From: Streptosporangiaceae bacterium
GTDB lineage: Bacteria; Actinomycetota; Actinomycetes; Streptosporangiales; Streptosporangiaceae
Length of the DNA: 27,568 nt
Reading direction: 5' to 3'
Assembly: GCA_030042885.1 (NCBI GenBank)
Contig: JASHYW010000237.1
Coordinates: 1-27,568, forward strand
Positions 8,430 to 27,568 of this stretch are shown one piece after another; within the stretch, counting starts at the first letter, position 1, and every line of letters begins with the position of its first letter. The notes under the pieces are model-generated. The model worked only from the letters and a program-made list of their open reading frames with translations. It did not search any database and was not told the origin of the DNA. The position numbers and the translations under genes were made by a program.

Positions 8430-8460
8430 ACACGAACGATCCCACGCACCCTTACCGGGA

Positions 8461-9954: not shown

Positions 9955-10695
9955 GTGATCGAGTCCACTACGAAGGACGGCGTGGCCGTGCTGGCCATGC
10001 GGCACGGCAAGGCCAACGCGCTGGACACCGAGCTGTGCCAGGCGCTGTGCGGCGCGCTGGATGACGCCGCCGCCGACGGCGCCGCCGCGGTCGTGCTGAC
10101 CGGCGCCGGCACGATGTTCTCGGCCGGGGTGGACCTCAAGCGGGTGACCGCCGGGCGGGAGGGGTACGTGGCCACCTTCCTGCCCGAGCTGCGGCGCACC
10201 TTCACCCGCCTGGCGACCTTCGAGCTGCCCGTGGTGGCGGCCGTCAACGGACACGCGATCGCGGGCGGGTTCATCCTGGTCGCCGCTGCGGACTGGGCGG
10301 TCATGGCCGAGGGCCCGGGCCGGGCGGGCCTGACCGAGCTGCTGGTCGGCGTCCCGTTCCCGGCCGTGGCGCTGGAGCTGCTGCGGCTGCGCGCCGGTGA
10401 TGCGCAGGCCCGGCCGCTCGCCCTGAGCGGGGCCACCTTCGGCGCCGGGGAGGCACTGGCCCGCGGCCTGGTCGACGAGGCCGTGCCCGCGGCGGAGCTG
10501 GCCGGCCGCTCGCTGGCCGCCGCCCAGCGGCTGGCCGCCCTGGGCCCGGCGTTCGGCCTCACCAAGCGCCAGCTACGGCAGCGGTTCCTGGCGCGCGTTC
10601 ATGACCTGGCCGTCCTCGATGCCGAGGTCGATGCGATCTGGCAAGCCCCGCCCACCCTGGAACGCATCCGGTCCTTCATGACCTCGATCAAGTAA
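9955..10695 (+). CDS. Enoyl-CoA hydratase/isomerase (crotonase) family protein
   Basis: A 246-residue crotonase-fold protein acting on acyl-CoA thioesters. The oxyanion-hole segments are visible as FSAGVDLKRVT near residue 60 and VNGHAIAGGFILVAAAD near residue 100. The segment where hydratases carry catalytic Glu residues reads AGLTELLVGVPFP. The length is typical of single-domain members, and the C-terminal helices LTKRQLRQRFLARVHDL and PPTLERIRSFMTSIK are normal. The start is GTG 9955, preceded by GGAGG with six bases of spacing. Another ATG at 9932 lies in a different frame. The gene stands alone, with no other fatty-acid gene nearby, so hydratase, isomerase or hydrolase activity cannot be separated. 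A hairpin at 10736-10759 probably ends its transcript. Confidence 0.93.
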   Translation: MIESTTKDGVAVLAMRHGKANALDTELCQALCGALDDAAADGAAAVVLTGAGTMFSAGVDLKRVTAGREGYVATFLPELRRTFTRLATFELPVVAAVNGHAIAGGFILVAAADWAVMAEGPGRAGLTELLVGVPFPAVALELLRLRAGDAQARPLALSGATFGAGEALARGLVDEAVPAAELAGRSLAAAQRLAALGPAFGLTKRQLRQRFLARVHDLAVLDAEVDAIWQAPPTLERIRSFMTSIK

Positions 10696-10735
10696 GCCGG
10701 GACCCGTCGGAAGCCATCCATGAGGAAGCTGCCCG

Positions 10736-10759
10736 TCGCCGCTGGCTCGTGAGCGGCGA
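10736..10759 (+). terminator. Hairpin downstream of the crotonase gene
   Basis: TCGCCGCT and AGCGGCGA form a perfect 8-bp stem around an 8-base loop, about 40 bases after the stop codon. No T-rich tail follows, as is common for actinobacterial terminators. Confidence 0.5.
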
Positions 10760-10944
10760 AGCGGCCAGCTGGCAATTCCACCGATGAGGTCACCGTAGCC
10801 GCGCCTGATGCTGATCCGGATTCGATCGCGCTGGGCCTTGCTGAGATGGCCATTGATCCGACTGGCCCTCGCTCACCTGCCGTAAACGGGTGTCCGCTGT
10901 ACTTGGATTCGGGAACCGCCGTTCTGCGGGATGAGAGAGCATGA
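10753..10944 (+). pseudogene. Unidentified C-terminal gene remnant
   Basis: A frame without a start codon reads VTVAAPDADPDSIALGLAEM, then SPAVNGCPLYLDSGTAVLRD, and stops with TGA at 10942-10944. Composition and codon choice look like real protein, but I cannot name the family. It directly follows a TGA at 10750-10752, so the 5' part is missing. Confidence 0.4.
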
Positions 10945-11086
10945 GCGGATTGAGGTTGTCGTCTCACAGAACTGGATGTTCGGCGCTTCCGCCCGCAACG
11001 CACAGGCCCCAGCGTCCGTGCGGCGGCGACGCCTGCGTGTACGCATGGGCGGCTGGTCGCTGCTGGAGTAGCTGGCAGGCGGTTGG

Positions 11087-11205
11087 TCAGCTGAGATCGG
11101 CGAGGAATTGGTCCAGCAGCTCGGTGAACCCTGCGGTTGCCTCCTGGTGGGCGGCGTGGCCAGCACCGGGGATCAGCTGCACGCGGCTGCGATACTGGCC
11201 GGAAC
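11087..11205 (-). pseudogene. Alpha/beta-hydrolase C-terminal remnant
   Basis: The minus strand reads RSRVQLIPGAGHAAHQEATA, then FTELLDQFLADLS and TGA at 11087-11089. IPGAGH..H.E....F...L..FL is the end of an alpha/beta-hydrolase, where His of GAGH is the catalytic base. The preceding two thirds of such a protein are absent; upstream frames do not continue it. Confidence 0.6.
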
Positions 11206-11446
11206 GGCATTAGAGCAGTCTGACACCGTTTGCCGAACGGTCTTTCGGACATATTGCCTGCCAGTGAGACAGTGGCTGGCTAAAATGATGAGTGGCCTCG
11301 AGGAAGCCAAGATGCGGAACTGTCCCCAGGCGCACGTTCGCCGGTGACAGGGCACCAGGGGAGGCGGGATCGCTCCATGAGCCGTTCACTCTTGCGGCGG
11401 TAATGACCGGCCAACAGCGGCGAGGTTTTCTTTCCGGCGGCTAATC
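11206..11446. other. Leader region of the SpoIIE phosphatase gene
   Basis: No gene is seen. The region is somewhat less GC-rich (TTCGGACATATTGCC, GGCTAAAATGATG) and is a plausible promoter area for the phosphatase at 11447, though no clear -35/-10 pair can be fixed by eye. Confidence 0.3.
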
Positions 11447-14197: not shown

Positions 14198-14674
14198 CCC
14201 GCACTCCAGACGCCACCGGCAGGCTACGGCTTTCCCGGCCAATCGCATGCCTACCGTCAGCAGCGCAGTGACTGGGCCAACAACAGCCTCCGGGGCGCTC
14301 ATGGCGGTGTGTATACATAACTGGATGATCAGCGCGTAGTCATGCGCGTGACTGGCACTGTGCTTAACAGCACCGAGTCGGCGATAAGGAACTCGGCGGT
14401 CCAGGAACCCGATCACGCTCAGCGACTGCGCCTGGTCCATGGCCAGTCCGCGATATCCGCCGTTATGGTCGGCTATGGAGCTGCAGCCTTCTGCACTGAT
14501 AGCGGCCCATAATTGCGCAATCTGTCGTGCCAATTGCCCATTGTGGTAGTGGATCTGGCCGAGGGCCGCTGCAGGCCGTCCAGGGCGAAAAGTCAAGGCA
14601 GCAATACCTTGCTGAGCTGCATTGTGTCTCGCCGATCCATGCTGGCCAACAGCCGAGAGCCTGCGAGGCACGCC
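14198..14674. other. Intergenic stretch with degenerate repeat copy
   Basis: No intact gene is visible between the convergent phosphatase and DUF1254 genes. The minus strand holds protein-like pieces, such as QIAQLWAAISAEGCSSIA and DQAQSLSVIGFLDRRVPYRR (about 14360-14540). The second includes the repeat shared with 7228-7293. An imperfect hairpin (CCGAGT at 14373-14378 with ACTCGG at 14391-14396) could serve transcript ends. Confidence 0.4.
14409..14473 (-). repeat. Degenerate dispersed repeat, copy 2
   Basis: Partner of 7228-7293 in the same orientation: the first 14 bases are identical and 27 of the first 30 agree. It reads DQAQSLSVIG on the minus strand, against DQLQSLSVIG in copy 1. Confidence 0.5.
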
Positions 14675-16117
14675 TTATACGCTGATCCGCTGGATCGGCG
14701 GGATCTGGTAGGTGCCGGCCCGGACCACGAGGTGGTTCTCGGTGGGCCCGTCGAGCATCTCCTGCCTGGGCTGGTAGACGCGGACGGTGAGGTTGAACGG
14801 ACCGCTGGGCGGGCAGGGCAGCCAGTTGGGTTCCCGGTCCGGGCCGGGCGATCGTGCCTGGATGTACACGTCGAGGGACCCGTCGGGGTTGTATTGCAGG
14901 GGCATCGCGGAGGTGATCCCGTAGCGTTCGATGGGGTTGTGCACGTAGAAGTTCTCCCGGTACGCCGAGATCGACCAGACCCCGCTGTGGGAGGGGAACA
15001 GCCCGTCCTTGGCGAAGTGGATCCGGTAGGCGCGTCCGCCGTTCAGCGGTTTCCCGTCGCCGTCGGTGAAGGCGCTGGGGTAGACCGCGTCCTCGGGCCA
15101 CAGCGCGCCGAGGCCGGTGAAGGCGACGAACGCGCGGGTGTTGTAGTCGGTGCCGTACCGGCCCAGGTTCAGCGGGAGCAGCCACCCGTTGACGCCCTTC
15201 ATCTGGTAGGGGGCGGTTTCGAGCATGCCCCAGACCCTCCGCGCGGCGCGGGTCAGTCCTTTGGCGGTCGCGGGGTCGACCTGGTCGGCGTCGAAATCCT
15301 TCCACGGGTTCAGGCCGACCGCGTTGAGCCTCATCAGCATCGGCCGGTCGGCGGGACGGGCCGGGTTGTCCTTCAGGGCAGCCGCGAGGCGCTGGAAGAA
15401 CGCGGGGCCGTCCATCAGCCGGACCTGGTCGAATGGGGTCGCCGTGGTGTCCGCGGCGGGGTCGACCGGGACCTCGGCGGGGGGCTGGCAGCCGGGTCCG
15501 CAGGCGCTGAGCGGGGTGATGGTCAGCTCGTCCTGCAGCGCGTGCACCTCGGGGAAGTCCCGGGCGTCAGCGGCGGCGATCTGCACCAGGATCCAGGCGT
15601 ACCGCGTGTCGCACCGGTAGGTCGCCTCGATGTCCGGTGGCGCGGTGCCGTGCCAGCCGGGCCCGGCGATCAGGCAGCGGCCGGCGTCCTTCCCGGTGGT
15701 CCGGGTGCCGATCGAGGCGAAGTTGTCGGTCCACATGTCCATGACCTGCGCGACCAGGTACCGCCCGCCGGCCGCCGGATAAGAGAACACGACAGGTTCG
15801 GCGGCCAGGTCGACGAACGCGGTGGCCCACAGCGAGTTCCGGCTGATGCGGACCACGTTCTTGAAGTCCGGGTCGACGAAATCCCGGAGCCGGTGGAACT
15901 GCCCGATCGGCGCGCTGTACTGGCCGGAGCGGGCCGCTGCGGTCATCACCTGCCTGGTCACGTCCATCAGGACCAGCGGGAACCCGTAAGCGTAGGCGTA
16001 CATGCCGAAGACGTAGGCGACCTGCTCCCTCGCCCAGTCGGCCCGGTGCCTCACCACGGCTGCCGCCTGATCCCGCACCAGGGCTGCCCGGTCCCTGGCC
16101 TGACCTGCACCGGGCAT
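14675..16117 (-). CDS. DUF1254/DUF1214 domain protein
   Basis: A 480-residue protein with an N-terminal DUF1254 part (VAYVFGMYAYAYGFPLVLMD, FVDPDFKNVVRISRNSLWA, YLVAQVMDMWTDNFASIG) and a C-terminal DUF1214 part (GLFPSHSGVWSISAYRENFY, NPIERYGITSAMPLQYNPDG, LDVYIQ). The biochemical role of these domains is not established; they are widespread in soil actinobacteria and proteobacteria. ATG 16117 is preferred over GTG 16120 because AAGGAGG then has normal spacing of about six bases. It is the last gene of a three-gene operon, 19 bases after the DUF1269-like gene. No signal peptide or membrane helix is evident, which is unusual because many relatives are exported. It ends with TAA at 14675. Confidence 0.92.
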   Translation of the reverse strand: MPGAGQARDRAALVRDQAAAVVRHRADWAREQVAYVFGMYAYAYGFPLVLMDVTRQVMTAAARSGQYSAPIGQFHRLRDFVDPDFKNVVRISRNSLWATAFVDLAAEPVVFSYPAAGGRYLVAQVMDMWTDNFASIGTRTTGKDAGRCLIAGPGWHGTAPPDIEATYRCDTRYAWILVQIAAADARDFPEVHALQDELTITPLSACGPGCQPPAEVPVDPAADTTATPFDQVRLMDGPAFFQRLAAALKDNPARPADRPMLMRLNAVGLNPWKDFDADQVDPATAKGLTRAARRVWGMLETAPYQMKGVNGWLLPLNLGRYGTDYNTRAFVAFTGLGALWPEDAVYPSAFTDGDGKPLNGGRAYRIHFAKDGLFPSHSGVWSISAYRENFYVHNPIERYGITSAMPLQYNPDGSLDVYIQARSPGPDREPNWLPCPPSGPFNLTVRVYQPRQEMLDGPTENHLVVRAGTYQIPPIQRISV

Positions 16118-16136
16118 CACGGCCCTCCTTCCGGCC

Positions 16137-16652
16137 TCAGGCGCCGCTGTCGGCCATCTTCTGCTGGGCGTCGGCGATCGCGCCCTTCAGCGCCTGGACG
16201 TGGTGGCCCTCGGCCTGACCGACGACCTTGGTGAGGGCGCGGGTCACGGCCGGCTCGACCTTGGCGGCGGCGGAGTGCGGGTAGGCGACGATCAGGCCCG
16301 CACCGCCGAGGGGGATGGTCTGCCCGGCCTGCTCCTCCAGATTGCTGGCGGTCTTGCGGTGCAGCAGCTTGCCCGCCCCGGCGCCGATCACCGCGCCGAT
16401 CGCGGTCGCGGCCAGCAGCGGCGGCGCGAACAGCCCGACGGCGAACCCGACCGCGCCCAGGCCGGCCGCGCCCTCGCGGACCATGTGGTCGGTCTGCTCC
16501 ACCGACAAGTTGCCCTGCAGGTCCTTGCTGACCACCACCGCGCCGTGGAGGTAACCGCCGCAGGCCAGAACCGCCTCGTAGTCGTCCCGGGCGGCGTCCT
16601 TGGACATGTAGCCGCCGATCAGCACGTCGGTGGTCTCGTCATCGAACTTCAC
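16137..16652 (-). CDS. DUF1269-like protein with glycine-zipper hydrophobic core
   Basis: A 171-residue protein. The N-terminal VLIGGYMSKDAARDDYEAVL and HGAVVVSKDLQGNLSV are typical of DUF1269-type proteins. A central hydrophobic glycine-rich stretch (GLGAVGFAVGLFAPPLLAAT and GAVIGAGAGKLLHRK) may form a membrane hairpin or oligomer core. The C-terminus is helical (VEPAVTRALTKVVGQAEG). GTG 16652 is the start, with GAGGAGG eight bases upstream; the frame is open beyond it but reads as antisense of the sulfatase end. It lies 28 bases after the sulfatase and 19 bases before the DUF1254 gene, so it is almost certainly co-transcribed. Its function is unknown; a membrane-associated accessory role to the two neighbours is my inference. 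Confidence 0.87.
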   Translation of the reverse strand: MKFDDETTDVLIGGYMSKDAARDDYEAVLACGGYLHGAVVVSKDLQGNLSVEQTDHMVREGAAGLGAVGFAVGLFAPPLLAATAIGAVIGAGAGKLLHRKTASNLEEQAGQTIPLGGAGLIVAYPHSAAAKVEPAVTRALTKVVGQAEGHHVQALKGAIADAQQKMADSGA

Positions 16653-16680
16653 TAGCAAACCCTCCTCAACCCCGCGGGGC

Positions 16681-19089
16681 TCACTCAGACAGCGCGTGCG
16701 CCGCGTCCCCGTGCTGAGCAGCCTCGTGCAGCTGCTGCTCGTCCTCGGCGGCCAGGTGCGGCCGGATGTCGAAGACCACCTTCTTGATCGTGCCGGTGAA
16801 CGCGAACGGCTTGCGGTCCTCGTAGCCGCGATCGACCACGCCGCCGTTGTCGCGGCCGATGTCCATACCCGCATAGCCGGAGAAGCGGACCGGGACGGTG
16901 TAGTCCATGCGGCCCTTGCCCACTGGCCGGCCGTTGATGAACAGGGTCACATCCCCACCGGTCGCAGGTTTGGGTGCGTCGGCGGCGAACTCCATCCGGA
17001 TCGTGACCTCCCCTTCGGGCAGCGGTGCGTCGGCCTGCTGGCGGTAGATGAACACGCCCATCATCGAGTAGGTATGGGTGAGCTTGCCGTCGGCGACGAA
17101 CAGCGAGAACCCGCCCAGGTGGTCGGCCTCGGCGACGATGACGCCCTCCGCGCCGCCGGGCGGGACTACCAGATCGGCGCTGATCGCATACGAGTGGTTG
17201 TAGATCCGCGGGATCATGCCCGACAGCACGTTCTGCACATCGCCACGGAACTCGAACCTGGTCTGCTCCGGCAGGGGCGGCAGCATGCCGAAGAAGGTGG
17301 ACAGGGCCGCCAGCAGCGGCAGCACTTTGTACCGCTCGGCTTCGGCCCAGAACAGGTCCTTCAGCTCGGCGACCTTTTCTGGATGTCCGGCGGCCAGGTC
17401 GTGCGCCTGGCTGAAATCGTCGGGCAGGTAATACAGCTCGGCCGGGTCGGCGTCGGGGTCCCAGGCATCGGGCGCGTACGGCTTGAGGGCCTCGGGTGTG
17501 ATGACCCACGGGATCCGCGGGGTCCGCATCGCCAGCCACCAGCCGTCCTTGTACATCGCCCGGTTGCCGATCGTCTCGAAGTACTGCTGCGTGTGCCGCT
17601 CCGGCGCCGCCGGGTCGGTCAGCGTCCCGGCGAACGTCACGCCCTGCATCGGCTCCTGGCCGATCCCGTCCACCGACGCCGGGGCCGGGATGCCCGCGAT
17701 GTCGAGGATGGTCGGCGCGACGTCGATGACGTGCGTGAACTGCGAGCGCAGCCCGCCGGGGCCGGTGACCCGCGCCGGCCAGTGGATGACCATCGGGTTG
17801 CGGTTGCCGCCCAGGTGCGAGCCCACCTGCTTGCCCCACTGGAACGGGGTGTTCCCGGCCCACGCCCACGCCGCCCCGTAATGCGGATCCATCAGCTCGC
17901 CGCCCCAGGCGTCGATGCCGCCGTAACGCTCGGACAGCTGCAGCTGCATCTCGTCGGTGAGCGGGATGCCGTTCTGCATGGTCAGCTCGTTGAACGAGCC
18001 GGTGATGGTGCCCTCCATGCTGGCGCCGTTGTCGCCCCAGATCCAGATGATCAGGGTATTGCCGAGCTCACCGAGTTCCTCGATGGCGTCGATGACCCGG
18101 CCCACGTTGTAGTCGGCGTTCTCGGAGTAGCCCGCGTACACCTCCATCTGACGGGCGTAGAAGGACTTCAGCCGCGGGGGTACGTCATCCCAGGCGGGGA
18201 ACGCCTCGTTCCTGGGCGTCAGCTCGGCATCGGCGGGGATCACGCCGAGCGCCTTCTGCCGCGCGAAGGTCTCCTCCCGCAGCCTGTCCCATCCCTGGTC
18301 GAATGTGCCCGTGTACTTGTCGGCCCAGGCCTTGGCCACGTGGTGGGGGGCGTGGCTGCAGCCGGTGGAGAAGTAGACGAAGAACGGCTTGTGCGCGTCC
18401 TGGGCCCGGACCCCGTGCAGCCACTCGATCGTCTTGTCCGCCATCGCATCCGGGAAGTAGTACGGGTTCTCCTGGTCGTAGTACTCCGCCGCCGTCCCGG
18501 TGATCTTCTGGTTCTCCGCCAGGCACGGGTCCCACTGGCTCGCCCCGCCGCCGAGGAAACCGTAGAAATAGTCGAACCCCCAGCCGTTCGGCCAGCGGTC
18601 GAACGGCCCCGCCGGACCCTGCTGCCCGTCCGGCGTCAGATGCCACTTACCGAAAGCCGCCGTGCTGTACCCGTTGTCCCGCAGGACCCGCGGCAGCGGC
18701 GCGCAATCCCGCGGAAGGGTGGCCGAGTACCCGGGAAACCCGCCCGCGAACTCACCCACCGAGCCGAAGCCCACCGCGTGGCTGTTACGACCCGTCAGCA
18801 GCGCCGCCCGCGTCGGCGAACACAACGCCGTGACATGGAACCGGTTGTACTTCAGCCCGCCCTCGGCCATCCGCGTGTAATTCGGCGTCGCGATCGGCCC
18901 GCCGAAGGTGGACGGATTCCCGAAACCAGCGTCGTCGATCAGCACCAGCAGAACATTCGGCGCTCCTGCAGGCGGCTCAGGATGCCCGATCAGGTTCCAG
19001 TCCGGCCCCGACCCCGCCAGCGTCCGGTTGGCCACCCCCCCAAACGGCGGCCTGCGGACCGGCAGCCTCGTCCGGTCAGGCTCACTCAT
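16681..19089 (-). CDS. Arylsulfatase, type I formylglycine-dependent
   Basis: An 802-residue sulfatase that hydrolyses sulfate esters. Cys90 in ALCSPTRAALLTGRNSH is the C-x-P-x-R signature residue that is converted to formylglycine. Metal ligands are visible as Asp52-Asp53 in LVLIDDAGFGNPSTFGG and in IIWIWGDNGASMEGT. Other family blocks are GKWHLTPDG and FVYFSTGCSHAPHH. The C-terminal 200 residues include a beta-sandwich (GDVTLFINGRPVGKGRMDYT). No signal peptide is present, so it is probably cytoplasmic, like the long actinobacterial arylsulfatases. ATG 19089 has GGGAGG a few bases upstream. It heads an operon with a DUF1269-like and a DUF1254 gene. A palindrome about 95 bases upstream may be an operator. 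No formylglycine-generating enzyme is in the window. Confidence 0.96.
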   Translation of the reverse strand: MSEPDRTRLPVRRPPFGGVANRTLAGSGPDWNLIGHPEPPAGAPNVLLVLIDDAGFGNPSTFGGPIATPNYTRMAEGGLKYNRFHVTALCSPTRAALLTGRNSHAVGFGSVGEFAGGFPGYSATLPRDCAPLPRVLRDNGYSTAAFGKWHLTPDGQQGPAGPFDRWPNGWGFDYFYGFLGGGASQWDPCLAENQKITGTAAEYYDQENPYYFPDAMADKTIEWLHGVRAQDAHKPFFVYFSTGCSHAPHHVAKAWADKYTGTFDQGWDRLREETFARQKALGVIPADAELTPRNEAFPAWDDVPPRLKSFYARQMEVYAGYSENADYNVGRVIDAIEELGELGNTLIIWIWGDNGASMEGTITGSFNELTMQNGIPLTDEMQLQLSERYGGIDAWGGELMDPHYGAAWAWAGNTPFQWGKQVGSHLGGNRNPMVIHWPARVTGPGGLRSQFTHVIDVAPTILDIAGIPAPASVDGIGQEPMQGVTFAGTLTDPAAPERHTQQYFETIGNRAMYKDGWWLAMRTPRIPWVITPEALKPYAPDAWDPDADPAELYYLPDDFSQAHDLAAGHPEKVAELKDLFWAEAERYKVLPLLAALSTFFGMLPPLPEQTRFEFRGDVQNVLSGMIPRIYNHSYAISADLVVPPGGAEGVIVAEADHLGGFSLFVADGKLTHTYSMMGVFIYRQQADAPLPEGEVTIRMEFAADAPKPATGGDVTLFINGRPVGKGRMDYTVPVRFSGYAGMDIGRDNGGVVDRGYEDRKPFAFTGTIKKVVFDIRPHLAAEDEQQLHEAAQHGDAAHALSE

Positions 19090-19182
19090 CCCTGTCCCAC
19101 CTCCCGGTCACCACCCGCCGGCGCGCCTGGGGATAGCCCGCGAATACGTCACCCTGAGCGGCCAGAAGCCTGATGACGACCA

Positions 19183-19198
19183 TGTCGTGACTACGACA
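19183..19198. promoter_or_regulatory. Operator-like palindrome upstream of the sulfatase operon
   Basis: TGTCGT-GACT-ACGACA is a perfect 6-bp inverted repeat with a 4-base spacer, 94 bases upstream of the sulfatase start. Size and symmetry fit a TetR- or MarR-type dimer, or another dimeric regulator. No regulator gene lies next to it. Confidence 0.45.
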
Positions 19199-19317
19199 AG
19201 GATCCACCCGGATGCGCGCAGCCGTCATCACCCGCCCCGGACGATCCCAGGTCGGCCGGCGGCAACGATGCCAAACAGCACGCAACGCCCGCAACCATGC
19301 TCCAGCGTCTCGTCACG

Positions 19318-19500
19318 CTCTTTGTATCTCCCGCAGCCGACCGGGCCGACCGGCCAACAGGAAGCAGCGGACCTGCTCGCCCTGGGCGCCACCCGTGTCC
19401 GGGGTGAACGCGTTACGGGCTTCCGGGTCTTCACCGACCCCGTCGGCCATCCGTTCTGCATCGTCTTCGGCCGCCCGGTGCCGGCTGACCTGGGCGTCCG
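19318..19500 (+). pseudogene. VOC/glyoxalase-like protein, C-terminal remnant
   Basis: The plus strand reads AADLLALGATRVRGERVTG followed by FRVFTDPVGHPFCIVFGRP. LALGATRV..... FRVF.DP.G..FCIV is the usual last third of a VOC-family protein. The first two thirds are missing, and the frame runs on into unrelated sequence. It is on the same strand as the intact VOC gene at 19563, but the two sequences are not similar enough to suggest a recent duplication. Confidence 0.6.
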
Positions 19501-19550
19501 GATCTGCGGCTGCGAGGGCGCCCAGGCCCAGCGTCCGGCTCGGGTCGGCC

Positions 19551-19556
19551 TATGCT
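19551..19556 (+). promoter_or_regulatory. Leaderless -10 box of the VOC gene
   Basis: TATGCT fits the actinobacterial TANNNT -10 motif and ends six bases before GTG 19563, where transcription would start at or next to the start codon. There is no ribosome binding site and no clear -35. Confidence 0.55.
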
Positions 19557-19562
19557 GGCGCG

Positions 19563-19964
19563 GTGCATCTCGGCCTTGTCGCGGTCGTGGTCAGCGAGTA
19601 TGACCCGGCGATCAGATTCTTCGTGGACGCACTGGGCTTCGAGCTGGTGGAGGACTCGCCGTCGCTGACGAATGACGGGCGTGCGAAGCGGCGGGTGGTG
19701 GTCCGGCCGCCGGGTGCCGTCACTGGGCTGCTGCTCGCCCGGGCTGACGGGGAAGATCAAGCCGCGGCCGTCGGGAGGCAGGCCGCAGGCCGGGTGGGTT
19801 TCTTTCTCCACGTTGATGATTTCGATGCTGCCTTGACGCGGATGGCATCGGCGGGCGTCGAGTTTTTGAGGGCGCCGCGCGCTGAACTCTATGGTCGCGT
19901 CGCGGTGTTCCTTGATATCGCTGGCAACAAATGGGACCTGGTCGGTCCCGCCTCGCAAGGCTGA
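19563..19964 (+). CDS. VOC (glyoxalase/bleomycin-resistance-like) family protein
   Basis: A 133-residue protein made of two beta-alpha-beta-beta-beta modules. The N-terminal module is VAVVVSEYDPAIRFFVDALG, FELVEDSPSL, KRRVVVRPPG and GLLLARA. The second is GRVGFFLHVDDFDAALTRM, GVEFLRAPRAELYGRVAVF and DIAGNKWDLVGP. Members bind metals and act as lyases, dioxygenases or drug-binding proteins; this one cannot be assigned further. GTG 19563 is chosen because the module begins there and a TATGCT box stands six bases upstream, implying a leaderless mRNA. The longer upstream frame belongs to unrelated sequence. It converges with the Rieske gene, with a hairpin between them. Confidence 0.87.
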   Translation: MHLGLVAVVVSEYDPAIRFFVDALGFELVEDSPSLTNDGRAKRRVVVRPPGAVTGLLLARADGEDQAAAVGRQAAGRVGFFLHVDDFDAALTRMASAGVEFLRAPRAELYGRVAVFLDIAGNKWDLVGPASQG

Positions 19965-20319
19965 CGGGCCGCGGGCGCAGCAGGAAAGGCCGTCCACGCG
20001 CGGTGATGAACGTCCTTGATGCGCCTCCGCCGAAGGGCGAAGCGTCGCCAAGAGGGTGCGGCCTTGGCGAGCGTGCACCCTTGCCCTGTCACGGCCACCG
20101 ATGACGTCCCGGACCCTCGCGGCGCCGACCCACTTCCAACCTGCGCGTAACGACGATCGCGGAGGGTAGTCGAATCGGAGATGGAACCCGCGCGCAAACC
20201 CGCCTGCGTGCTGAACGGTGACGGCTGCAGGCGCGTCCAGCCGCGCCGGGAATGGTGATTCTGGGCGGCCGGCTGGATTCCGCCCTTCGCAGACTCGCGC
20301 TGATGAGGACACCTCTAAT
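19965..20319. other. Convergent intergenic region
   Basis: This lies between the 3' ends of the VOC and Rieske genes. Apart from the hairpin at 20045-20070 I see no feature and no supported reading frame. Confidence 0.5.
20045..20070. terminator. Hairpin between convergent genes
   Basis: TCGCCAAG (20045-20052) and CTTGGCGA (20063-20070) form a perfect 8-bp stem with a 10-base loop. It lies about 80 bases after the VOC stop and could act in both directions. No T tract follows. Confidence 0.45.
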
Positions 20320-22077
20320 CTAACCCTCGGTGTCGCCTTTGGCGCGGCCCTGGATGAAGTCGATCGCCTCGAGGGTTGCCTGGTAGACAAAGCGCTCGCG
20401 TTTGGGTGCGGCCAGGAACCTGGCCGCCGCTGCGAGTGGCTCCCGCCCGGCCGTGCCGGCGCGGGACTCGGCGATCGCGGCGGTGGTGGTCTTTACCGCG
20501 TGCGCGACCATGATCGACGCGGTCGAGTTGTCCTCGGCGGCGGCCTGGGTGAGCGCGGTCTCCAGCGGCGCGGCGGGGCCGTCGTAGCCCTTGACCAGCG
20601 CCACCGCCTGGTCCGGATCGCGCTTCCTGATCGCCGCCAGCACCGCGTCCGGCTTAGACCCCGGGTACGGCGCCACCGGAGCCGGTTCTGGCTTGGCGTC
20701 GAACTTCGATGTCCACTGGACGAACCAGGCCGCGTGCAAGACCCCGCGCAGCACCTGGGGACCCGGGTCGGCCGACCACGCCCAGCGCAGCGCGTTGGTG
20801 TAGGTCAGGGTGTGCGTGACGTCCAGCCAGCCGGCGTCTTTGGAGTCGTCTGTGTCCGAGGCGATGTCGAACCGGCCCAGCCGGGCCGCCGCCACCGACG
20901 CGATCGCATCGATGATGTGCGGCACCGGCACGCCACCACGAACCGCGGCAGTGACCGCAGCGACCGCATCCTCCGGCATCCCGTCCAGCAGTATCCGCCG
21001 CAGGCCGGGAATATCCGGATCTGGAGCGGCCGGGACGGGGACGTGACCTGGGACGGCGGCGCCGCGGTTCTGGGCAGCGCGGGCGCGGACGTCCGGGTCG
21101 TCTGCCGCCCGCCAGGCCCGCAGGAAGCGGCGCATGTACGGAAGCCGGTCGTACCGGGTGGACCAGGTGATCGCAGGCACCAGTGGCGCCAGCACCGTGT
21201 CCGCCTGCGACCAGCCGATCCGGTCGAGCAGGCCGAACGCCTTCTGGCAGTAGATCATCGGGTGCCCGTACCCGAGGAAGTGGTCAGTGATCGCGCAAAG
21301 GAACGCGTGCCGGATCTGCCCCGGCGACGCGCCGGCCGCCAGCAGTCCGCGCAGCAGCGCCTCGGCGTCCTCGCCTTGCTCGGCGTCGACCAGAGGGGGA
21401 AACGCGGCCAGGCCGTCAGCCACCGAGCCGTATGCGCCGACGACATCCACCGGGTCCGGCCGGGGCCGCGGCGGCCGGCGCACCTCGGTGCGGCTCACCG
21501 TGGACAGGCCCTGGATGACCGGCAGCGCGCTCAGCGGCCCCTGGAAGGCGGCCGCCATCGTCAGGCAATCCGCGAGCGTGGCCAGGGAATGGTTCCAGCC
21601 GTACTCGGCGCGGGTGGCGCCATACCTCACGCCCGCGCGCACCACCTCGGTCAGCGGTGTCCCGATCGCGCGCAGGCGCATCGTGTCTCTGGCGAGGCGG
21701 CCGGTATCCACCTCACCCATGGCGTCGAGCAGGCTCGCGAACAACTCCGGTGCGATCTGCTCCGGCGCCGGATCGGTGACGTCCACATACACCCACCCGT
21801 CACGCACCGACACCGGATACGTCCGGATGTTCTCCCCGCCGAACACGCACTTGCCGTCGGTCAGCCGGAACTTCCAGTTGTGCCACGCACAGGTCAGCAC
21901 GTCCCCGCGGATGTCGCCGTCCTTCAGCGCGTACCCCTGGTGCGGGCACCGGTTGTCCGCCGCGTACACACCCGCGGCGGTACGGAACAACGCGATCCGC
22001 TTGCCGCCATGACGCCAGAGCTTGCCCTGCCCGTCCGGGATATCCGCGATGGCTACGGCGCGCACCAAGTTCGTCAT
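20320..22077 (-). CDS. Rieske 2Fe-2S protein with large helical C-terminal domain (questin-oxidase-like?)
   Basis: A 585-residue protein. Residues 1-105 form a Rieske domain: Cys44-Pro-His46 and Cys63-Ala-Trp-His66, spaced C-x-H-x16-C-x2-H, in NRCPHQGYALKDGD and VLTCAWHNWKF. The remaining 480 residues are helical and carry His-rich segments: EYGWNHSLATLADCL, CAITDHFLGYGHPMIYCQKA and WLDVTHTLTYTNALRWAW. The pattern of NH, H-P and TH..T..ALR motifs recalls questin-oxidase-like (DUF4243) proteins, but this is my tentative reading. It could be a single-chain oxygenase in which the Rieske cluster feeds an oxidative domain. ATG 22077 is chosen over an upstream ATG at 22113 because the Rieske strand begins there and TACCGT lies six bases before it. 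The protein is probably cytoplasmic. Confidence 0.88.
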   Translation of the reverse strand: MTNLVRAVAIADIPDGQGKLWRHGGKRIALFRTAAGVYAADNRCPHQGYALKDGDIRGDVLTCAWHNWKFRLTDGKCVFGGENIRTYPVSVRDGWVYVDVTDPAPEQIAPELFASLLDAMGEVDTGRLARDTMRLRAIGTPLTEVVRAGVRYGATRAEYGWNHSLATLADCLTMAAAFQGPLSALPVIQGLSTVSRTEVRRPPRPRPDPVDVVGAYGSVADGLAAFPPLVDAEQGEDAEALLRGLLAAGASPGQIRHAFLCAITDHFLGYGHPMIYCQKAFGLLDRIGWSQADTVLAPLVPAITWSTRYDRLPYMRRFLRAWRAADDPDVRARAAQNRGAAVPGHVPVPAAPDPDIPGLRRILLDGMPEDAVAAVTAAVRGGVPVPHIIDAIASVAAARLGRFDIASDTDDSKDAGWLDVTHTLTYTNALRWAWSADPGPQVLRGVLHAAWFVQWTSKFDAKPEPAPVAPYPGSKPDAVLAAIRKRDPDQAVALVKGYDGPAAPLETALTQAAAEDNSTASIMVAHAVKTTTAAIAESRAGTAGREPLAAAARFLAAPKRERFVYQATLEAIDFIQGRAKGDTEG

Positions 22078-22083
22078 GCCAGG

Positions 22084-22089
22084 ACGGTA
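22084..22089 (-). promoter_or_regulatory. Leaderless -10 box of the Rieske gene
   Basis: On the minus strand TACCGT (TANNNT) is followed by exactly six bases and then ATG 22077. The absence of a ribosome binding site agrees with a leaderless transcript and decides the start codon. Confidence 0.5.
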
Positions 22090-22113
22090 ACGCCCCGTGC
22101 CCCGCTTGCACAT

Positions 22114-22536
22114 CGGCCGTTCGTCCTAGGACCAGGCCGGGGCTGTGCCCGGACAAGTTGATATGACGTTAAGCGCCTTACTCGTGCCACGGCCCAGATG
22201 CCGCATGGCGGACGATACAAAACAAAGCGAAAAGCCTTGGCGATCACATTCCGTAACCGGTGCTGTTTACTCGCCGCGCGCAAAGCCGCCGTTCTGGTCG
22301 CAATCAAGGCACTCGGTATCCGCCAGCTGAGGCACGCAGAAGAGGTCGATCTGGTGCGCCATGATCAGGGCGAACCGCGCCCCCGAGCGACCGTAGCCGC
22401 GATGAGGTGTGTCACGACCGCGATCGCAGAATGCATCGACCTCCAAAGCGCGGACGGACCTGCTGATGCGTTGCATACCGTGACCGGTCAGTGCCGAGCC
22501 ACTGCCCATCGGCTACCGAGGTCGGCCGAGGTCAAC
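22114..22536. other. Intergenic stretch with unassigned protein-like fragment
   Basis: The minus strand from about 22270 to 22420 reads GARFALIMAHQIDLFCVPQL, then CLDCDQNGGFARGE. It includes a C-x2-C pair but no credible start, so I treat it as a remnant of unknown origin. The part next to the Rieske gene contains its upstream region. Confidence 0.35.
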
Positions 22537-22923
22537 CTACAGGTGACCTATCGCGGCAGCTGCCGCCGTCCCGATGGCAATGAGTGCAGAGACCGTCGCA
22601 AGGCAGTCCTTGGCCGACCCGAACAAGCTCCTGACCAGCTCTCTCCACCGGGCAGGCACGAAGGCCTGCTTCAATCTCTGCCACTTGTGCTGGCGTATCC
22701 AGCAACCGAGCAGCAAGCCGCGGGAGTTATTGCGGCAGGCCAGCCCTTCGCGTGTCGGCGTCATGCATACCACTGGTGCCAGCAGGAGGAGGTAGAAGAA
22801 GGCTAGCCCGGCGAGCACCAACACGGCTAAGAACTCCAGGTGTTCTATTACTCCGACCACCGCAGCGATCAAGGCAAGGTGGCCCCAGTAGCGCACGAAC
22901 ATCTTGCTGGCCCACTTCCCCAC
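22537..22923 (-). CDS. Small conserved membrane protein of unknown function
   Basis: A 128-residue protein. Two adjacent hydrophobic helices occupy about residues 14-55 (GHLALIAAVVGVIEHLEFLA and LVLAGLAFFYLLLLAPVVC). A polar middle part follows with conserved-looking CRNNSRGLLLGCWIRQHKWQ and FVPARWRELVRSLFG, and the C-terminus ends in a weakly hydrophobic stretch (TVSALIAIGTAAAAAIGHL). This matches a type of hypothetical protein I associate with actinomycetes; no function is known. GTG 22923 is chosen because the protein begins there with MGKWASKMF and a TACGTT box stands six bases upstream, again a leaderless layout. The gene stands alone, between degenerate sequence and the DUF1990 pseudogene. 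Confidence 0.78.
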   Translation of the reverse strand: MGKWASKMFVRYWGHLALIAAVVGVIEHLEFLAVLVLAGLAFFYLLLLAPVVCMTPTREGLACRNNSRGLLLGCWIRQHKWQRLKQAFVPARWRELVRSLFGSAKDCLATVSALIAIGTAAAAAIGHL

Positions 22924-22929
22924 GGCCAG

Positions 22930-22935
22930 AACGTA
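22930..22935 (-). promoter_or_regulatory. Leaderless -10 box of the small membrane protein gene
   Basis: TACGTT on the minus strand fits TANNNT and lies six bases before GTG 22923. The geometry is identical to those at 19551 and 22084. Confidence 0.5.
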
Positions 22936-23209
22936 ACCCCGCTCGCCGCACCGTTCCAGACGTATTTACCTGGCCATTCAGTCACTGACGTCAGCCACAG
23001 CCCGATGGCCACCCAACACCGGAGCAGCGCCTGCAGGCTTGGCGACTGTGCGGGCGGCGCTCAGAACGGCAACGCGCACGTTCAGCACATCTCATCAATC
23101 GGCGCGGTGATGCTGGGACGGGCTGCATGAGTATAGATGTCGGCCTGGCACAAGCGACGGTGCTCATGCCGCGGACAGCGCTGGTGTTTCGGTCCGGGAT
23201 GATGGGCCC
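22936..23209. other. Divergent intergenic region
   Basis: Short region between the diverging membrane protein gene and DUF1990 pseudogene. No gene is seen. GATGAT at 23198-23203, six bases before ATG 23210, may be a weak leaderless -10 element for the DUF1990 gene. Confidence 0.4.
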
Positions 23210-23745
23210 ATGCCGCCGGTCGTTCTCATGCCTGCCGCCTTGGCGAACCGCCTGCGCGAAGCGGACCTGACTTATCCCGAGGCAGGGGCAACCACCGGGT
23301 TGCTCCCGCCCGGTTACCATCACCTGCGCCGCACCGTGACGATCGGCCACGGCACCCAGGCGTTCACCACCGCCGCGGACACCCTGGCCGGCTGGCAGGT
23401 GCACGCCCGGGCGGGTCTGCACGTCTCAGCGTCTGCAGCCACGGCCGAGCTGGGCAGCGTGCTGCACCTGAGCCTGGGCCTCGGCGCGATCCGGATCGGC
23501 GCACCCTGCCGGGTCGTCTACGTGGTCGACGAGCCGGACGCGGCTTCGCCTACGGGACGCTGCCCGGCCATCCCGAACGCGGCGAGGAAGCCTTCATCAT
23601 CAGCCGCCGCCAGGACGCGGCAGTGACCTTCACGATCATCGCCTTCTCCAGGCCGGCATCACCGCTGGCCACAGCCGCAGGACCGTTCGGCCGGGCCATT
23701 CAGCGCCGCATCACCAGCCGCTACCTGCGGGCGATTCCCCGCTGA
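23210..23745 (+). pseudogene. DUF1990 family protein, broken by a one-base deletion
   Basis: From ATG 23210 the frame reads LREADLTYPEAGATTG, LLPPGYHHLRRTVTIGHG, AGWQVHARAGLHVSAS and PCRVVYVVDEPD, the standard order in DUF1990 proteins. Near 23537-23540 one base is missing. The continuation is in another frame: RGFAYGTLPGHPERGEEAFI, VTFTIIAFSRPASPLA and GPFGRAIQRRITSRYLRAIP, ending at TGA 23743-23745. With the base restored, the product would be about 178 residues, the normal family length. Everything else is well preserved, so the break is recent or a sequencing error. DUF1990 proteins have no assigned function. The arrangement suggests a single-gene unit. Confidence 0.82.
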
Positions 23746-24154
23746 CCACCGTCCAGCGGTCCCGGCAGCGCAAGCATGCGCCCATGCCGGGCAGCGCGCC
23801 ACGCCGAGCCTCACGCAGCCGCCTGGCGGCCGTATGCCGCGCCTGCCAGAACTCGCCCGGGGGCGACAGGCCGTGACCTTCTGCAACCGGTCCTGGATGG
23901 TCCGGTCTGCCGGTCGATCTCGGATTACATCGACCTGAGCATCACGCTGACTGAGACGGCAGAAAAGTCAGAGAGTGCCCACCGAGCCGCCGATCTGCGC
24001 GGCCGCCTGGGTGTGACGGCGCCGTCCGCGATGCTCGCAGATCTGGGCGATCTGCGCGCCCCTCACGGCCGCCGACTCCGGTTCATGCCGACAATCGGAG
24101 GCCTGCGAGGTCCGGTTACCGGCGCTTCAGCGGGGAAGGTGAGACCATTACACG
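23746..24154. other. Intergenic stretch
   Basis: No intact gene. A plus-strand piece around 23900-23995 (SISDYIDLSITLTETAEKSE) looks like a helical protein fragment, without start or family. The last bases contain GGGGAAGGTGAG, a possible but distant ribosome binding site for the VOC gene at 24155. Confidence 0.35.
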
Positions 24155-24538
24155 ATGCAGCTCCATCCGATCATGTATGTCACCGACCAGTACGCGGAGC
24201 GTTCCTTCTACGAACTGTTCGGCTTCGAGCGCCTTTATGAGGGTGACGAGTTACCCGGTTTCCTGGCTATTCAGCACGGCGAAGCGATTATCGGACTTCA
24301 GCGAGCATCGTCCGAGCAACCGGCCTATTCGAAGGGTCTTCGATGGCAGTTCGAGCTCGATACGGCTGATCAGGTCGACGAGATCATCGCGATCTGCCGC
24401 GACCACGGACTTGAGCATGAGGTCGTCACTGAGCAAGGCGGAGATCGCTTTTTTCGTCGTCTGGTCGCCGTCCGTTCCCCGGGCGGCGTGACCGTTTGGT
24501 TTGAGGGCGCGAACGAGGCTGGTTCGGCTGGCGGCTGA
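24155..24538 (+). CDS. VOC (glyoxalase-like) family protein
   Basis: A 127-residue VOC-fold protein. The first module is HPIMYVTDQYAERSFYELFG, FERLYEGDELPGFLAIQHGE and AIIGLQRASS; the second is LRWQFELDTADQVDEIIAIC, HEVVTEQGGDRFFRRLVAVR and SPGGVTVWFEGAN. The arrangement and length are normal. The metal-ligand pattern of true glyoxalases is not obvious, and the activity is unknown. Codon use includes more A/T-ending codons (ATT, TCG, CGT) than the neighbouring genes, so a separate origin is possible. The ATG start at 24155 begins exactly at the fold. AAGGTGAG lies 10-17 bases upstream, so a ribosome binding site is weak. It is not closely similar to the VOC protein at 19563. Confidence 0.85.
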   Translation: MQLHPIMYVTDQYAERSFYELFGFERLYEGDELPGFLAIQHGEAIIGLQRASSEQPAYSKGLRWQFELDTADQVDEIIAICRDHGLEHEVVTEQGGDRFFRRLVAVRSPGGVTVWFEGANEAGSAGG

Positions 24539-24747
24539 ACACGACTCTGTGCCTGCATGCCTGTCGCCGGTTGCAGAGCGTGATCGACTCACAAATGACA
24601 ACCGCGCACACTGCCGCCGTTCGGCGCGGCCTTCGGCTCGATGCCGATCACGATGATGGCCGTCCAGATTTGGGCATTCTGTGCGTTCACGAGCCGGGCA
24701 GACGGGGATCGCTGGTTACATCCTGGGGCTGACAGCCGCCGGTCAGG
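24539..24747. other. Convergent intergenic region
   Basis: Between the 3' ends of the VOC gene and the sigma factor gene. No gene and no clear hairpin with a T tract is seen. Confidence 0.4.
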
Positions 24748-25584
24748 TCAGTCGAGGTAATCCCGCAGCACCTGGGACCGGGACGGGTGCCGCAGCTTCG
24801 ACATGGTCTTGGACTCGATCTGCCGGATCCGCTCCCGGGGGGTGGGCTCGCGGCCCAGGTCCTGCAGCATCTGGCGCTGCGCCCGGGCGAGCTCGCTGAT
24901 GGCCTCGACCACGTGCACCGGAAGGCGGATCGTGCGGGCCTGGTCGGCCATGGCCCGGGTGATCGCCTGCCGGATCCACCAGGTGGCGTAGGTGGAGAAC
25001 TTGTAGCCCTTGGTGTAGTCGAACTTCTCGACCGCGCGGATCAGGCCCAGGTTGCCCTCCTGGATCAGGTCCAGCAACAGCATCCCCCGGCCGGCATACC
25101 GCCTGGCCTGCGAGACGACTAGGCGCAAGTTGGCCTCCACCAGGTGGTTCTTGGCCGTCCTGCCGTCTTCGGCGACCCGCTCAAGGTCAATGCTCTGGCC
25201 GGGGCGCAGCACCCCCCTGCCTGCGGCGAGCTTCTCCTCGGCGAACAGCCCGGCTTCGATCTGCTTGGCCAGCTCGACCTCCTGCCCGGCGCTGAGCAGC
25301 GGGACCTTGCCGATCTGCCTGAGGTAGTCCTTGACCGGGTCGGCCGTAGCCCCGGCCACTGCCACCTGCGCGGCGGGCAGGTCCTCGTCGTCATCGCCGA
25401 AAACCAACGGCTCGTCCTCGCGCTGGCCGGTGCCTGGCTCCTTGCCGGCCGCCTCCTGCCCGGCGCAGGGCTCATCGTGGGCAAGACCTGAGCGCGCCAT
25501 TTCGATCGGAGCGGCAGGCAGCGGCCCGTCGATCTCAACAGCGTCGCCGTCCCCGCGGGGGTCGGCCGGGTCATTCAAGCCCAT
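24748..25584 (-). CDS. Principal-type (SigA/HrdB-like) sigma factor with internal deletion of region 3 and most of region 4
   Basis: A sigma-70 protein of about 278 residues. Region 1.2 ([20 protein letters not shown]) and regions 2.1-2.4 ([57 protein letters not shown]) are complete. After LGREPTP the chain jumps in frame to [18 protein letters not shown] and ends SQVLRDYLD. In ordinary group 1 factors about 100 residues separate these parts: regions 3.0-3.2, 4.1 and the first helix of the region 4.2 helix-turn-helix. The join lies at 24833-24845 in a C/G-rich run. Core binding and -10 recognition could persist, but -35 contact should be lost. The start is uncertain: ATG 25584 has no clear ribosome binding site, and the frame is open to 26070. 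It may be a decaying paralogue of the housekeeping factor. Confidence 0.85.
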
Positions 25585-26165
25585 AACAGCGTTGATACCA
25601 CCGCCAGCAGCTGCAACGAGCTCGAGCCCACGGGCCAGCCCGGGAGCAGCTGCACCTGACCTGACTTCGGCCCAGCAACCAGGTACTCGCCGGGCTTCTG
25701 ACACTTCTTGCGTCCAAGCGTGCGAGCCTGCGTCCAGCACATAGCGCGGGCCGGGCTGGCCGCTGGTTATCTTGCACACCAACGCGACTGTTCCCCGCCC
25801 GGTGCGGACCAGCGGCGCGGCACCATGCCATGCCCGGTGAGCCACGAAGACATGCATCCCAGCATCGGGCCGTACCGGTCGGTACCTGCCCCTGCCCGGG
25901 ACCCGGACCAGCTCGCAAGTCAGCCTTGCCTCCGGGTCGTGGTCTTCATGGGCTACCTGCAGACTGGCGCCCGGCACGCGTGGCCGGGTGAGGGTGTCTA
26001 ATGGACCGGGTTGCAGTCGAAGTTCGTGTACGTGTCGCAGCGCCTGCGAAATTCTGACAGCGGGCGCCATCGGTGCCCATAGCCAGGCATTACCGGCAGG
26101 CGGTCCGCGCCAGCCCGGGTCGCGGGCACGCGCGTCCCCAAGATCGTCGCACCGGGAGAAGGCAC
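25585..26165. other. Divergent intergenic region between sigma factor and cold-shock genes
   Basis: The sigma factor frame stays open across most of this stretch (for example [20 protein letters not shown]), so part of it could encode an N-terminal extension, but no known domain is visible. The right end is the long leader of the cold-shock gene, with GGGAGAAGG just before its start. Confidence 0.35.
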
Positions 26166-26369
26166 ATGGCTCAAGGCACTGTGAAATGGTTCAGCGCCGA
26201 CAGGGGGTACGGTTTCATCGCCCCGGGCGATGGCACCGGCGACGTCTTCGTGCACCAGTCCGCCATCCAGGCCGAAGGTTACCGCAGCCTGCAAGAGAAC
26301 CAGCGGGGCGAGTACACCGCCCGCCGCGGGCCCAAGGGTCCGCAGGCCGAGCAGGTCCAGCCGCTCTAG
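26166..26369 (+). CDS. Cold-shock domain protein (CspA family)
   Basis: A 67-residue single OB-fold nucleic-acid-binding protein that acts as an RNA chaperone. [20 protein letters not shown] contains RNP1 (YGFIAP), and DVFVHQSAI is RNP2. The rest is [20 protein letters not shown] and AEQVQPL. ATG 26166 follows GGGAGAAGG at good spacing. The length is the family standard. Compared with usual actinobacterial CspA the second half has Gly-Glu-Tyr-Thr-Ala-Arg-Arg in place of the more acidic V-E-F-x-V-T-x segment. It has a long untranslated leader, which in this family often regulates translation at low temperature; that is inference here. A hairpin 50 bases after the stop is a likely terminator. 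Confidence 0.95.
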
Positions 26370-26418
26370 CCCGTTCAGCCACGCTGGCTGCCCATACGGG
26401 CTGCCAGCTGCCGGGACC

Positions 26419-26437
26419 GGTGGTTCCGCGGAACCGC
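26419..26437 (+). terminator. Hairpin downstream of the cold-shock gene
   Basis: The palindrome GGTTCCGCGGAACC (26422-26435) can fold as a 5-bp stem with a CGCG loop, extended by a wobble and a G-C pair outside. It lies about 50 bases after the stop. No T tract. Confidence 0.4.
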
Positions 26438-26610
26438 TCCGCTCTCGCAGCGCCGATCAGCGGGCCGGGTCGATCCGGTGCGGGCCGCGGCCTCCCGCAG
26501 AACTGGATGCGTCAGCTGTGCCGCCGCGACGCATTAGGGCTCTCGCCAGCACCGTGCGAGGCGGCATCACCATGGCCTGCCGCCGTAGGCACGTATCCGG
26601 CTGAGGGATG

Positions 26611-26847
26611 TTACAGCTTGGTGAGCTTGGCGCACGGCAGCGGGATCCGCCGTTGCTGCGGGCGGAAGTCCACGAGCACGGCGTGGTCTTCCACGCCGAG
26701 GATGACGCCGAGCCCGTACGCGTCGTGCGTCACCTGATCGTGGACGGCGAACGTCTCGGCCGGGCGCACCGGAACCGGGGCCTTGAACGGGCTGCCGGGC
26801 AGGTAGCGCCGGGCCGCGGCGCGGGGTGCGTTCATAGCTACTATCAT
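26611..26847 (-). CDS. Small tudor/CarD-like domain protein
   Basis: A 78-residue protein whose C-terminal half, VHDQVTHDAYGLGVILGVED followed by AVLVDFRPQQRRIP and LPCAKLTKL, is an SH3/tudor-like barrel. It resembles the RNA-polymerase-interacting domain of CarD and the C-terminal domain of UvrD/PcrA. The G.GVI.GVE......V.F sequence is the core. The N-terminal 30 residues are basic and Pro-rich. ATG 26847 has GGGAGG just upstream, with rather short spacing; ATG 26835 (MNAPRAA) is an alternative. Proteins of this kind are common in actinomycetes, and a role at RNA polymerase or on DNA repair complexes is inferred from the fold only. It stands alone, convergent with the cold-shock gene. Confidence 0.78.
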   Translation of the reverse strand: MIVAMNAPRAAARRYLPGSPFKAPVPVRPAETFAVHDQVTHDAYGLGVILGVEDHAVLVDFRPQQRRIPLPCAKLTKL

Positions 26848-27286
26848 GCGCCCTCCCTGCCCAGGCCAGCGACGCCGGCCGGCCGCACCCGGCCGGCGCA
26901 GGCCAAAGAGCCACACGACCGGCGCAGGCACCGAATTGAGAGCGACGAGCTGGGTGCCCAGACCAGGCCTTGCCAGGCACGGGTCATAGGACAAGTCAGC
27001 AAGTAGCCGATTTCAGGACGTTGCGCTTGTACATGCTTACGCGCAACCAGCATGATCATTCGTTGTCCGGGCGGCAATCCCGCCAGAGGTACCCGGCCGA
27101 GCGCCTGACCACTCCCGAGGCGGCCAAGACTCAACGTCACTTTCTGTGATCAGTGCTGCTCCTGGCTGACGCGCGCGGAGCCGCCGTTACGCGTGGCTCT
27201 AGTGTACGGATTCTGGTGCAGCTGATCAGCGCGGTACTGGGTGATCTGGGTGGTTGTACGACACCGGGCCGGCCGCCCGGGTCTGG
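26848..27286. other. Intergenic stretch
   Basis: No gene is supported. TACACT on the minus strand (27201-27206) resembles a -10 box but no gene follows at a suitable distance. The right end contains the terminator hairpin of the DUF899 gene. Confidence 0.4.
27264..27280 (-). terminator. Hairpin downstream of the DUF899 gene
   Basis: CCGGGC and GCCCGG form a 6-bp G-C stem around a 5-base loop, six bases after the minus-strand stop codon of the DUF899 gene. Position and strength fit a terminator without T tract. Confidence 0.5.
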
Positions 27287-27568
27287 TTATTCGCTGGCCC
27301 CGCTTGCGCGGTCGTACTCGTCGTGGCGGCGGAACCAGTTGAGCGGGTCGTCGGGGCCGCGCGCCTCATTTCGCCCTCGCGGCGCCCGGTCGAGCCACTG
27401 GTACATGCCCCACAGGCCGTCCAGGCCGCGCGCATAAGCCGAGTAGGTGTGGTAGACGACCCCGTCCTCGAGCGCGAATGCGCTCATGCCCGGGCGCTCG
27501 CGTGTATAGATCGCCCAGTCCGTGCCCGTGGTTGCGGCCCACGCGTCGAACGGCCCGCGCATGTCCTC
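27287..27568 (-). CDS. DUF899 family (thioredoxin-like) protein, 5' partial
   Basis: The visible 93 codons are the C-terminal part of a DUF899 protein; the frame continues past the window edge, so the Met at 27562 is internal. Diagnostic segments are MSAFALEDGVVYHTYSAYAR, GLDGLWGMYQWLDRAPRGRN and WFRRHDEYDRA. DUF899 proteins have a thioredoxin-like fold but usually lack a clear redox Cys pair in this part; their function is unknown. The stop is TAA at 27287, and a GC hairpin follows directly. The preceding DWAIYTRERPG links the fold's last strands. Confidence 0.9.
   Translation of the reverse strand, partial: EDMRGPFDAWAATTGTDWAIYTRERPGMSAFALEDGVVYHTYSAYARGLDGLWGMYQWLDRAPRGRNEARGPDDPLNWFRRHDEYDRASGASE

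Follow-up and report, generated by a model that had tools for sequence, protein, structure and literature searches.

The actinobacterial principal and group 2 sigma factors of the HrdB/SigA and HrdA/C/D types are the closest described counterparts of the protein analysed here, P0001, which resembles them in regions 1.2, 2 and 3.0 and in its last 29 residues and differs from them by 103 absent residues. In such factors, region 2 serves core binding as well as -10 recognition and melting. As in P0001, the -35 domain is lost from the E. coli sigma70 fragments 1-448, 1-529 and 1-553, for which the sections of PMC7948647 dealing with them report that the shortest is inactive at promoters yet stimulates nucleotide addition by the core, that the two longer ones fail on lacUV5 and work at a reduced level on an extended -10 promoter, and that activity at both promoters survives a small deletion confined to the region 3.2 finger. 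In E. coli, region 4.2 itself is dispensable at the extended -10 promoter lambda Pre* (Kumar 1993, as relayed in the relevant text of PMC2613000). Unlike these fragments, P0001 is shortened internally and keeps a C-terminal remnant of 29 residues. The SigO-RsoA system of Bacillus subtilis offers another likeness, since region 2 function is provided there, as in P0001, without region 4 in the same chain (available text of PMC8103513); the two domains are assigned the other way round in a table within the available part of PMC10141391.

Domain anatomy of the shortened sigma factor

P0001 is encoded on the minus strand of the window, that is, the whole analysed stretch of 27,568 nucleotides from a soil-type actinobacterium, by an open reading frame that begins with an ATG at 25584, ends at 24748 and holds no internal stops (Table 1). 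It matched PRK05901 of NCBIfam with an E-value of 4.9e-131, and the general cut-off of TIGR02937 was the only one that it passed (25 NCBIfam families shown of 44 matched). Its best relatives among solved structures (PDB) are HrdB and SigA, from hosts which we take to be actinobacteria. An assignment to the ECF (group 4) sigma factors was rejected, region 4 being incomplete and the nearest families being SigA/HrdB.

Table 1. Coordinates, in the window, of the features of the shortened sigma factor gene and its 3' flank
Feature	Position	Strand	Basis
Truncated HrdB/SigA-like accessory sigma factor P0001, 278 aa	24748..25584	-	Pfam, NCBIfam, PDB relatives
Region 1.2, kept (residues 82-115)	25240..25341	-	PF00140, E 2.8e-15
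Region 2, complete (residues 148-218)	24931..25143	-	PF04542 1-71/71, E 1.3e-23
Region 3 remnant: most of region 3.0 helix + LGREPTP (residues 227-249)	24838..24906	-	PF04539 positions 1-25 of 78
Join between residues 249 and 250; 309 bp / 103 codons absent relative to intact relatives	24835..24841	-	alignments, blastn
Surviving end of region 4.2 (residues 250-278, 29 residues)	24751..24837	-	second aligned stretch to SigA/HrdB
3' flank common to the G037 accessory sigma copies, with GCACAGAATGCCCNNATCTGGAC at 24662-24684	24613..24747	-	blastn, motif search

Regions 1.2 and 2 were recovered with 56.4 bits (cut-off 22) and 83 bits, respectively. The match to region 3 was incomplete and covered 25 of the 78 model positions at 22.7 bits, below the cut-off of 25.3; the first helix of this region, region 3.0 (about residues 222-249), is retained, including H224, which is invariant in alignment A1, and E227, which is nearly so. 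No match to the region 4 helix-turn-helix family PF04545 was found in P0001 by Pfam at E 0.001, and HMMER aligned P0001 to SigA as two segments (49-258 and 232-278). Lost are the remainder of region 3, region 4.1 and the beginning of the region 4 helix-turn-helix. Residues 252-278 show no amino-acid difference (dN 0) to the corresponding part of C338, a long HrdB-like frame of the genome G037 described below. The AlphaFold2 model of P0001 was poor (mean pLDDT 51.8).

The preliminary description of this DNA had reported LGREPTP joined straight to RERIRQI, with about 100 residues or some 300 bases missing, and this holds, the exact figures being 103 residues and 309 bp. It had also taken region 3 and the front of region 4 to be missing in frame; the in-frame loss stands, but the region 3.0 helix belongs to region 3 and is still in place. 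Likewise, the frame and the C-terminus survive as had been stated, whereas of the recognition helix it is most, rather than all, that remains.

Placed on the E. coli factor, the collinear part of P0001 ends near residue 480 (3iyd, query 140-255 on chain 371-486, assumed to be ungapped), and collinearity presumably resumes at R584. Equivalents of E. coli W433, W434, Q437, T440 and H455 are, as we take it, present in P0001. So is the equivalent of E458, a residue named in the text of PMC2613000 at hand. The collinear end thus lies between the inactive (1-448) and the impaired (1-529, 1-553) sigma70 fragments.

The available text of PMC8103513 describes, for SigO-RsoA, how the functions of regions 2 and 4 are shared out between two proteins, and P0001 might accordingly be one half of a two-part sigma factor that receives region 4 from a separate protein. 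We regard this as highly improbable: unlike SigO-RsoA, no partner was seen among the window frames scanned, with no region 4 protein in 19 further ORFs examined with Pfam (of 87 ORFs of at least 100 aa); the C-terminus of P0001 is a region 4 leftover and not a new interface; and no second case of the join was found in the searches made.

Elsewhere on the plus strand, the window encodes a 457-aa DDE_5 transposase (2188-3561) and a 916-aa MASE1-GAF-SpoIIE protein (11447-14197), both identified with Pfam. SpoIIE-kind phosphatases often control anti-sigma switches. At 26166-26369 (+), a frame different from the one read in the longer ORF listed for this place encodes a 67-residue protein (MAQGTVKWF...GYGFI...DVFVH) that we take from its motif to be cold-shock-like; similar sequence is found at several places in G037. 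A plasmid search of the window returned nine records, in none of which a single place covered 80%, and tRNA and Rfam scans of it (the latter at the gathering threshold) were empty, as was a terminator scan of 24500-26100.

Rarity of the join and intact relatives

Three protein searches, each keeping the best 120 of about 8,000 scored candidates, listed 352 distinct proteins, P0001 included. Both landmarks, LGREPTP and RERIRQI, were located with a loose motif in 350 of them, a motif distance of 105 corresponding to 103 residues between the two landmarks because the motif stops two residues earlier. Among these matches listed, the spacing was standard (103 residues) in 342/350 and 94-106 or 149 in seven, and the direct join occurred in P0001 only, being missing from every one of the other 351 proteins in the lists. 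The two proteins without both landmarks were P0089, which misses the second, and P0323, which was missed by the first motif and whose entry shows regions 3 and 4. Similar results were obtained at the DNA level: among the matches listed, no direct join was present in at least 80 named genome loci (80/80 at the standard distance), and of the loci L081-L144, some of which overlap each other, 63/64 had the standard distance, L114 being without one landmark. A degenerate DNA pattern for PTPRERIRQ was absent from 341/341 genomes of the family of G037. One match of the pattern to a viral contig (L175) was rejected as a chance occurrence, its frame not being that of a sigma gene and lying opposite another ORF.

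The database cluster of P0001 consists of one member on one contig, and no report of a natural HrdB/SigA protein with such an internal loss was found in the literature as judged by titles and the openings of abstracts. The search for relatives with the same join that the preliminary description had called for returned no second protein, either among the 352 listed or in the 341 family genomes, and the join looks private to P0001. With P0001 as the single case in these searches, a conserved class of shortened sigma factors is not supported. It is quite improbable that P0001 represents a naturally minimal housekeeping-type sigma factor, composed of regions 1.2-3.0 and a short helical tail, that acts among its paralogues as a -35-independent initiator at extended -10 promoters or as a competitor damping transcription.

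The closest genome reached, G037 (6.7 Mb), belongs to the same family as Actinomadura rupiterrae (G001); two of the listed proteins, P0028 and P0061, bear the database label Streptosporangiaceae bacterium. G037 holds a 628-aa open frame on contig C338, which is probably its principal HrdB, an intact accessory copy of 399 aa (C380), and two further copies (C433 and C601) in which the front of the gene is cut by the contig end and regions 3-4 are kept. A more distant homologue (50%) is found on C234, and C444 carries a tail fragment that is 93% like C338 over 647 bp; because of this resemblance, G037 may hold two HrdB copies or derive from mixed strains. The longest match of G037 to window positions 7600-27568 is 70% over 2.3 kb and the others range widely, so that G037 and the window organism are probably different species. 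The earlier suggestion to look for a full-length paralogue was thus borne out in the nearest genome reached, from which the intact copies of the window organism itself would be deduced.

The accessory copies of about 399 aa (P0002, C380, C433 and C601) are the nearest sequence relatives of P0001, and all four keep regions 3 and 4, the join being found in P0001 alone. P0002 (about 398-399 aa) is 92% identical to P0001 in alignment A1 and 84% by BLAST; compared with it, exactly 103 residues are missing from P0001 between LGREPTP and RERIRQI. In a FastTree phylogeny of 139 sequences (P0001-P0120 without P0089, four G037 copies and 16 hand-picked HrdB-like loci), P0001 falls within a seven-member clade together with C433 and P0002 (support 0.95). 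Given that both of these retain the lost part, the deletion is most simply placed later than their split from P0001. P0089 (275 aa, on a 14.4-kb contig) has a changed frame just after LGREPTP, which leaves regions 1.2-3.0, as deduced from the protein.

The relation to C433 is not uniform along the gene. DNA identity between the window and C433 amounts to 96.4% over the 415 bp ahead of the break and to 78% in the tail and 3' flank, with a dS of 0.078 in the head (residues up to 251) and of 0.48 in the tail (27 codons only); identity declines from 100% at the start of the C433 contig to 68-82% in the blocks of the 3' flank. C433 and C601 are, in turn, nearly identical in the tail and 77-83% identical in a middle stretch. 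These patterns suggest gene conversion or a mosaic history among the sigma copies. C433 as a simple ortholog was rejected, its contig having no blastn match in the window from base 985 onward. The 23-base GCACAGAATGCCCNNATCTGGAC downstream of the stop codon occurs once in the window and, allowing up to two mismatches, three times in G037, each time beside one of the accessory copies C380, C433 and C601 and nowhere else in that genome. Since the surroundings of the accessory copies otherwise differ, these copies are best described as dispersed duplicates.

Conservation of the retained part and probable origin of the join

If P0001 were an old pseudogene, drift would be expected in the retained part. 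In the near-invariant-column test no such drift was found: P0001 is changed at none of the 133 covered columns in which 97% or more of the other rows agree, a result shared by 59/124 rows. At the 90%-conserved columns of alignment A1 it departs at 2 of 159 positions (R108Q and F170L), the median of 45 rows also being two. Over 202 core positions it has a single private residue, E231 (0/139 other rows), rows ranging from 0 to 4. An old pseudogene is therefore disfavoured, the retained part being without visible decay. The absence of departures at the 133 columns and the single private residue fit a young event, and the absence of decay would be expected equally from a recent deletion and from selection acting on the shortened protein.

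Taken alone, the dN/dS of 0.34 between the heads of the window gene and C433, the third highest of ten pairs, would be a hint that constraint is relaxed; on visual inspection, C433 accounts for several of the non-synonymous differences. In the recognition helix of C433, RERIRQI reads REWIRQI (R to W), and a near-invariant alanine is replaced by threonine. Departures at near-invariant columns number two in C433, two in the HrdB of C338, three in C380 and one in C601. Relaxed constraint in C433 is thus weakly indicated, HrdB having two departures as well.

As regards the join itself, blastn matches of the window to the G037 copies break at 24838/24839. The preliminary description had proposed a short-homology deletion between shared ACCC(C)GGAG stretches. 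This is true in a loose sense, CACCC or ACCC occurring near both deletion ends in the accessory copies C380, C433 and C601; the usable overlap between front and rear ends, however, is limited to 2 bases in C433 and 1 base each in C601 and C380, and there is none in the HrdB of C338.

So short an overlap also argues against a join made from k-mers during assembly. That 309 bp were lost from the contig through collapse or chimerism of near-identical paralogues, in the assembly or in the library, is rather unlikely: the multi-copy family does break contigs in G037, where C433 and C601 end inside the gene, and the P0001 cluster has its one member on one contig, but 1-2 bases in the accessory copies are far too few for a k-mer join, and the frame and codon usage of P0001 are clean (GC3 0.91).

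Taken together, we consider it probable, though well short of certain, that a recent and private in-frame deletion of 309 bp, in one of several redundant accessory sigma copies, gave rise to P0001. The starting copy would have belonged to a dispersed accessory (group 2) HrdB-like family of uncultured Streptosporangiaceae, and C-rich stretches would probably have mediated the deletion, through illegitimate recombination or replication slippage. With intact copies and the principal HrdB doing the work, a truncated copy would be tolerated. To judge by their sequences, further family members may be damaged too (the R to W change in C433, the frame change in P0089), which would add support to such a recent loss. 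Conversely, the two thirds of the protein that remain are well conserved and in frame, the latter being something that luck would allow in one of three cases, and a functional short sigma factor would match these features as well. It also weighs against such a loss that the intact copies of the window organism are deduced from G037, probably a different species.

Expected activity and significance

As region 2 and the region 3.0 helix are intact, P0001 is predicted to dock on the core and to read -10 and extended -10 elements, docking presumably on the beta-prime clamp via region 2. The product would be unable to hold the flap or the -35 box, the region 3.2 finger would be gone and the last 29 residues could not form a helix-turn-helix; with these contacts lost, the product alone would be an inactive or very weak initiator. 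A mild competitive effect may be exerted, if the product is expressed. By analogy with the E. coli fragments, initiation by P0001 is likely to be absent or very weak, with competition for core as the most that would be expected.

P0001 may alternatively be a working regulator, either a sigma factor of regions 1.2-3.0 serving extended -10 promoters without -35 contact, perhaps aided by an activator or an RbpA-like helper, or a dominant competitor for core. All 133 covered near-invariant columns and the region 3.0 residues H224 and E227 are kept, in line with such a role, and the E. coli work points the same way in so far as an extended -10 promoter does without region 4.2 (relevant text of PMC2613000) and the fragment 1-448 stimulates nucleotide addition by the core (PMC7948647, same sections as above). 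We nevertheless find it unlikely, given that the searches made returned no second case of the join, that the same sections of PMC7948647 describe 1-448 as promoter-inactive and the longer fragments as impaired, and that a sigma-70 promoter scan of 24500-26100 returned nothing, such a scan being a weak test in a GC-rich actinobacterium. The activity at extended -10 promoters initially proposed is hence conceivable from the intact region 3.0, yet the inactivity of 1-448 and the impairment of 1-529 and 1-553 speak against it. The accompanying proposal of leaderless-type promoters is unsupported. Being leaderless is a property of an mRNA.

Overall, the join in P0001 is real and unusual-looking, and most likely the outcome of an ordinary event, a recent deletion in one accessory copy. 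Should P0001 work, nature would have supplied an equivalent of the laboratory sigma70 fragments with which core binding, melting and starting are probed. Irrespective of this, members of a dispersed, several-copy accessory HrdB-like family can lose parts in uncultured Streptosporangiaceae, presumably through redundancy, and the better question is why this lineage keeps several near-copies of a housekeeping sigma factor.
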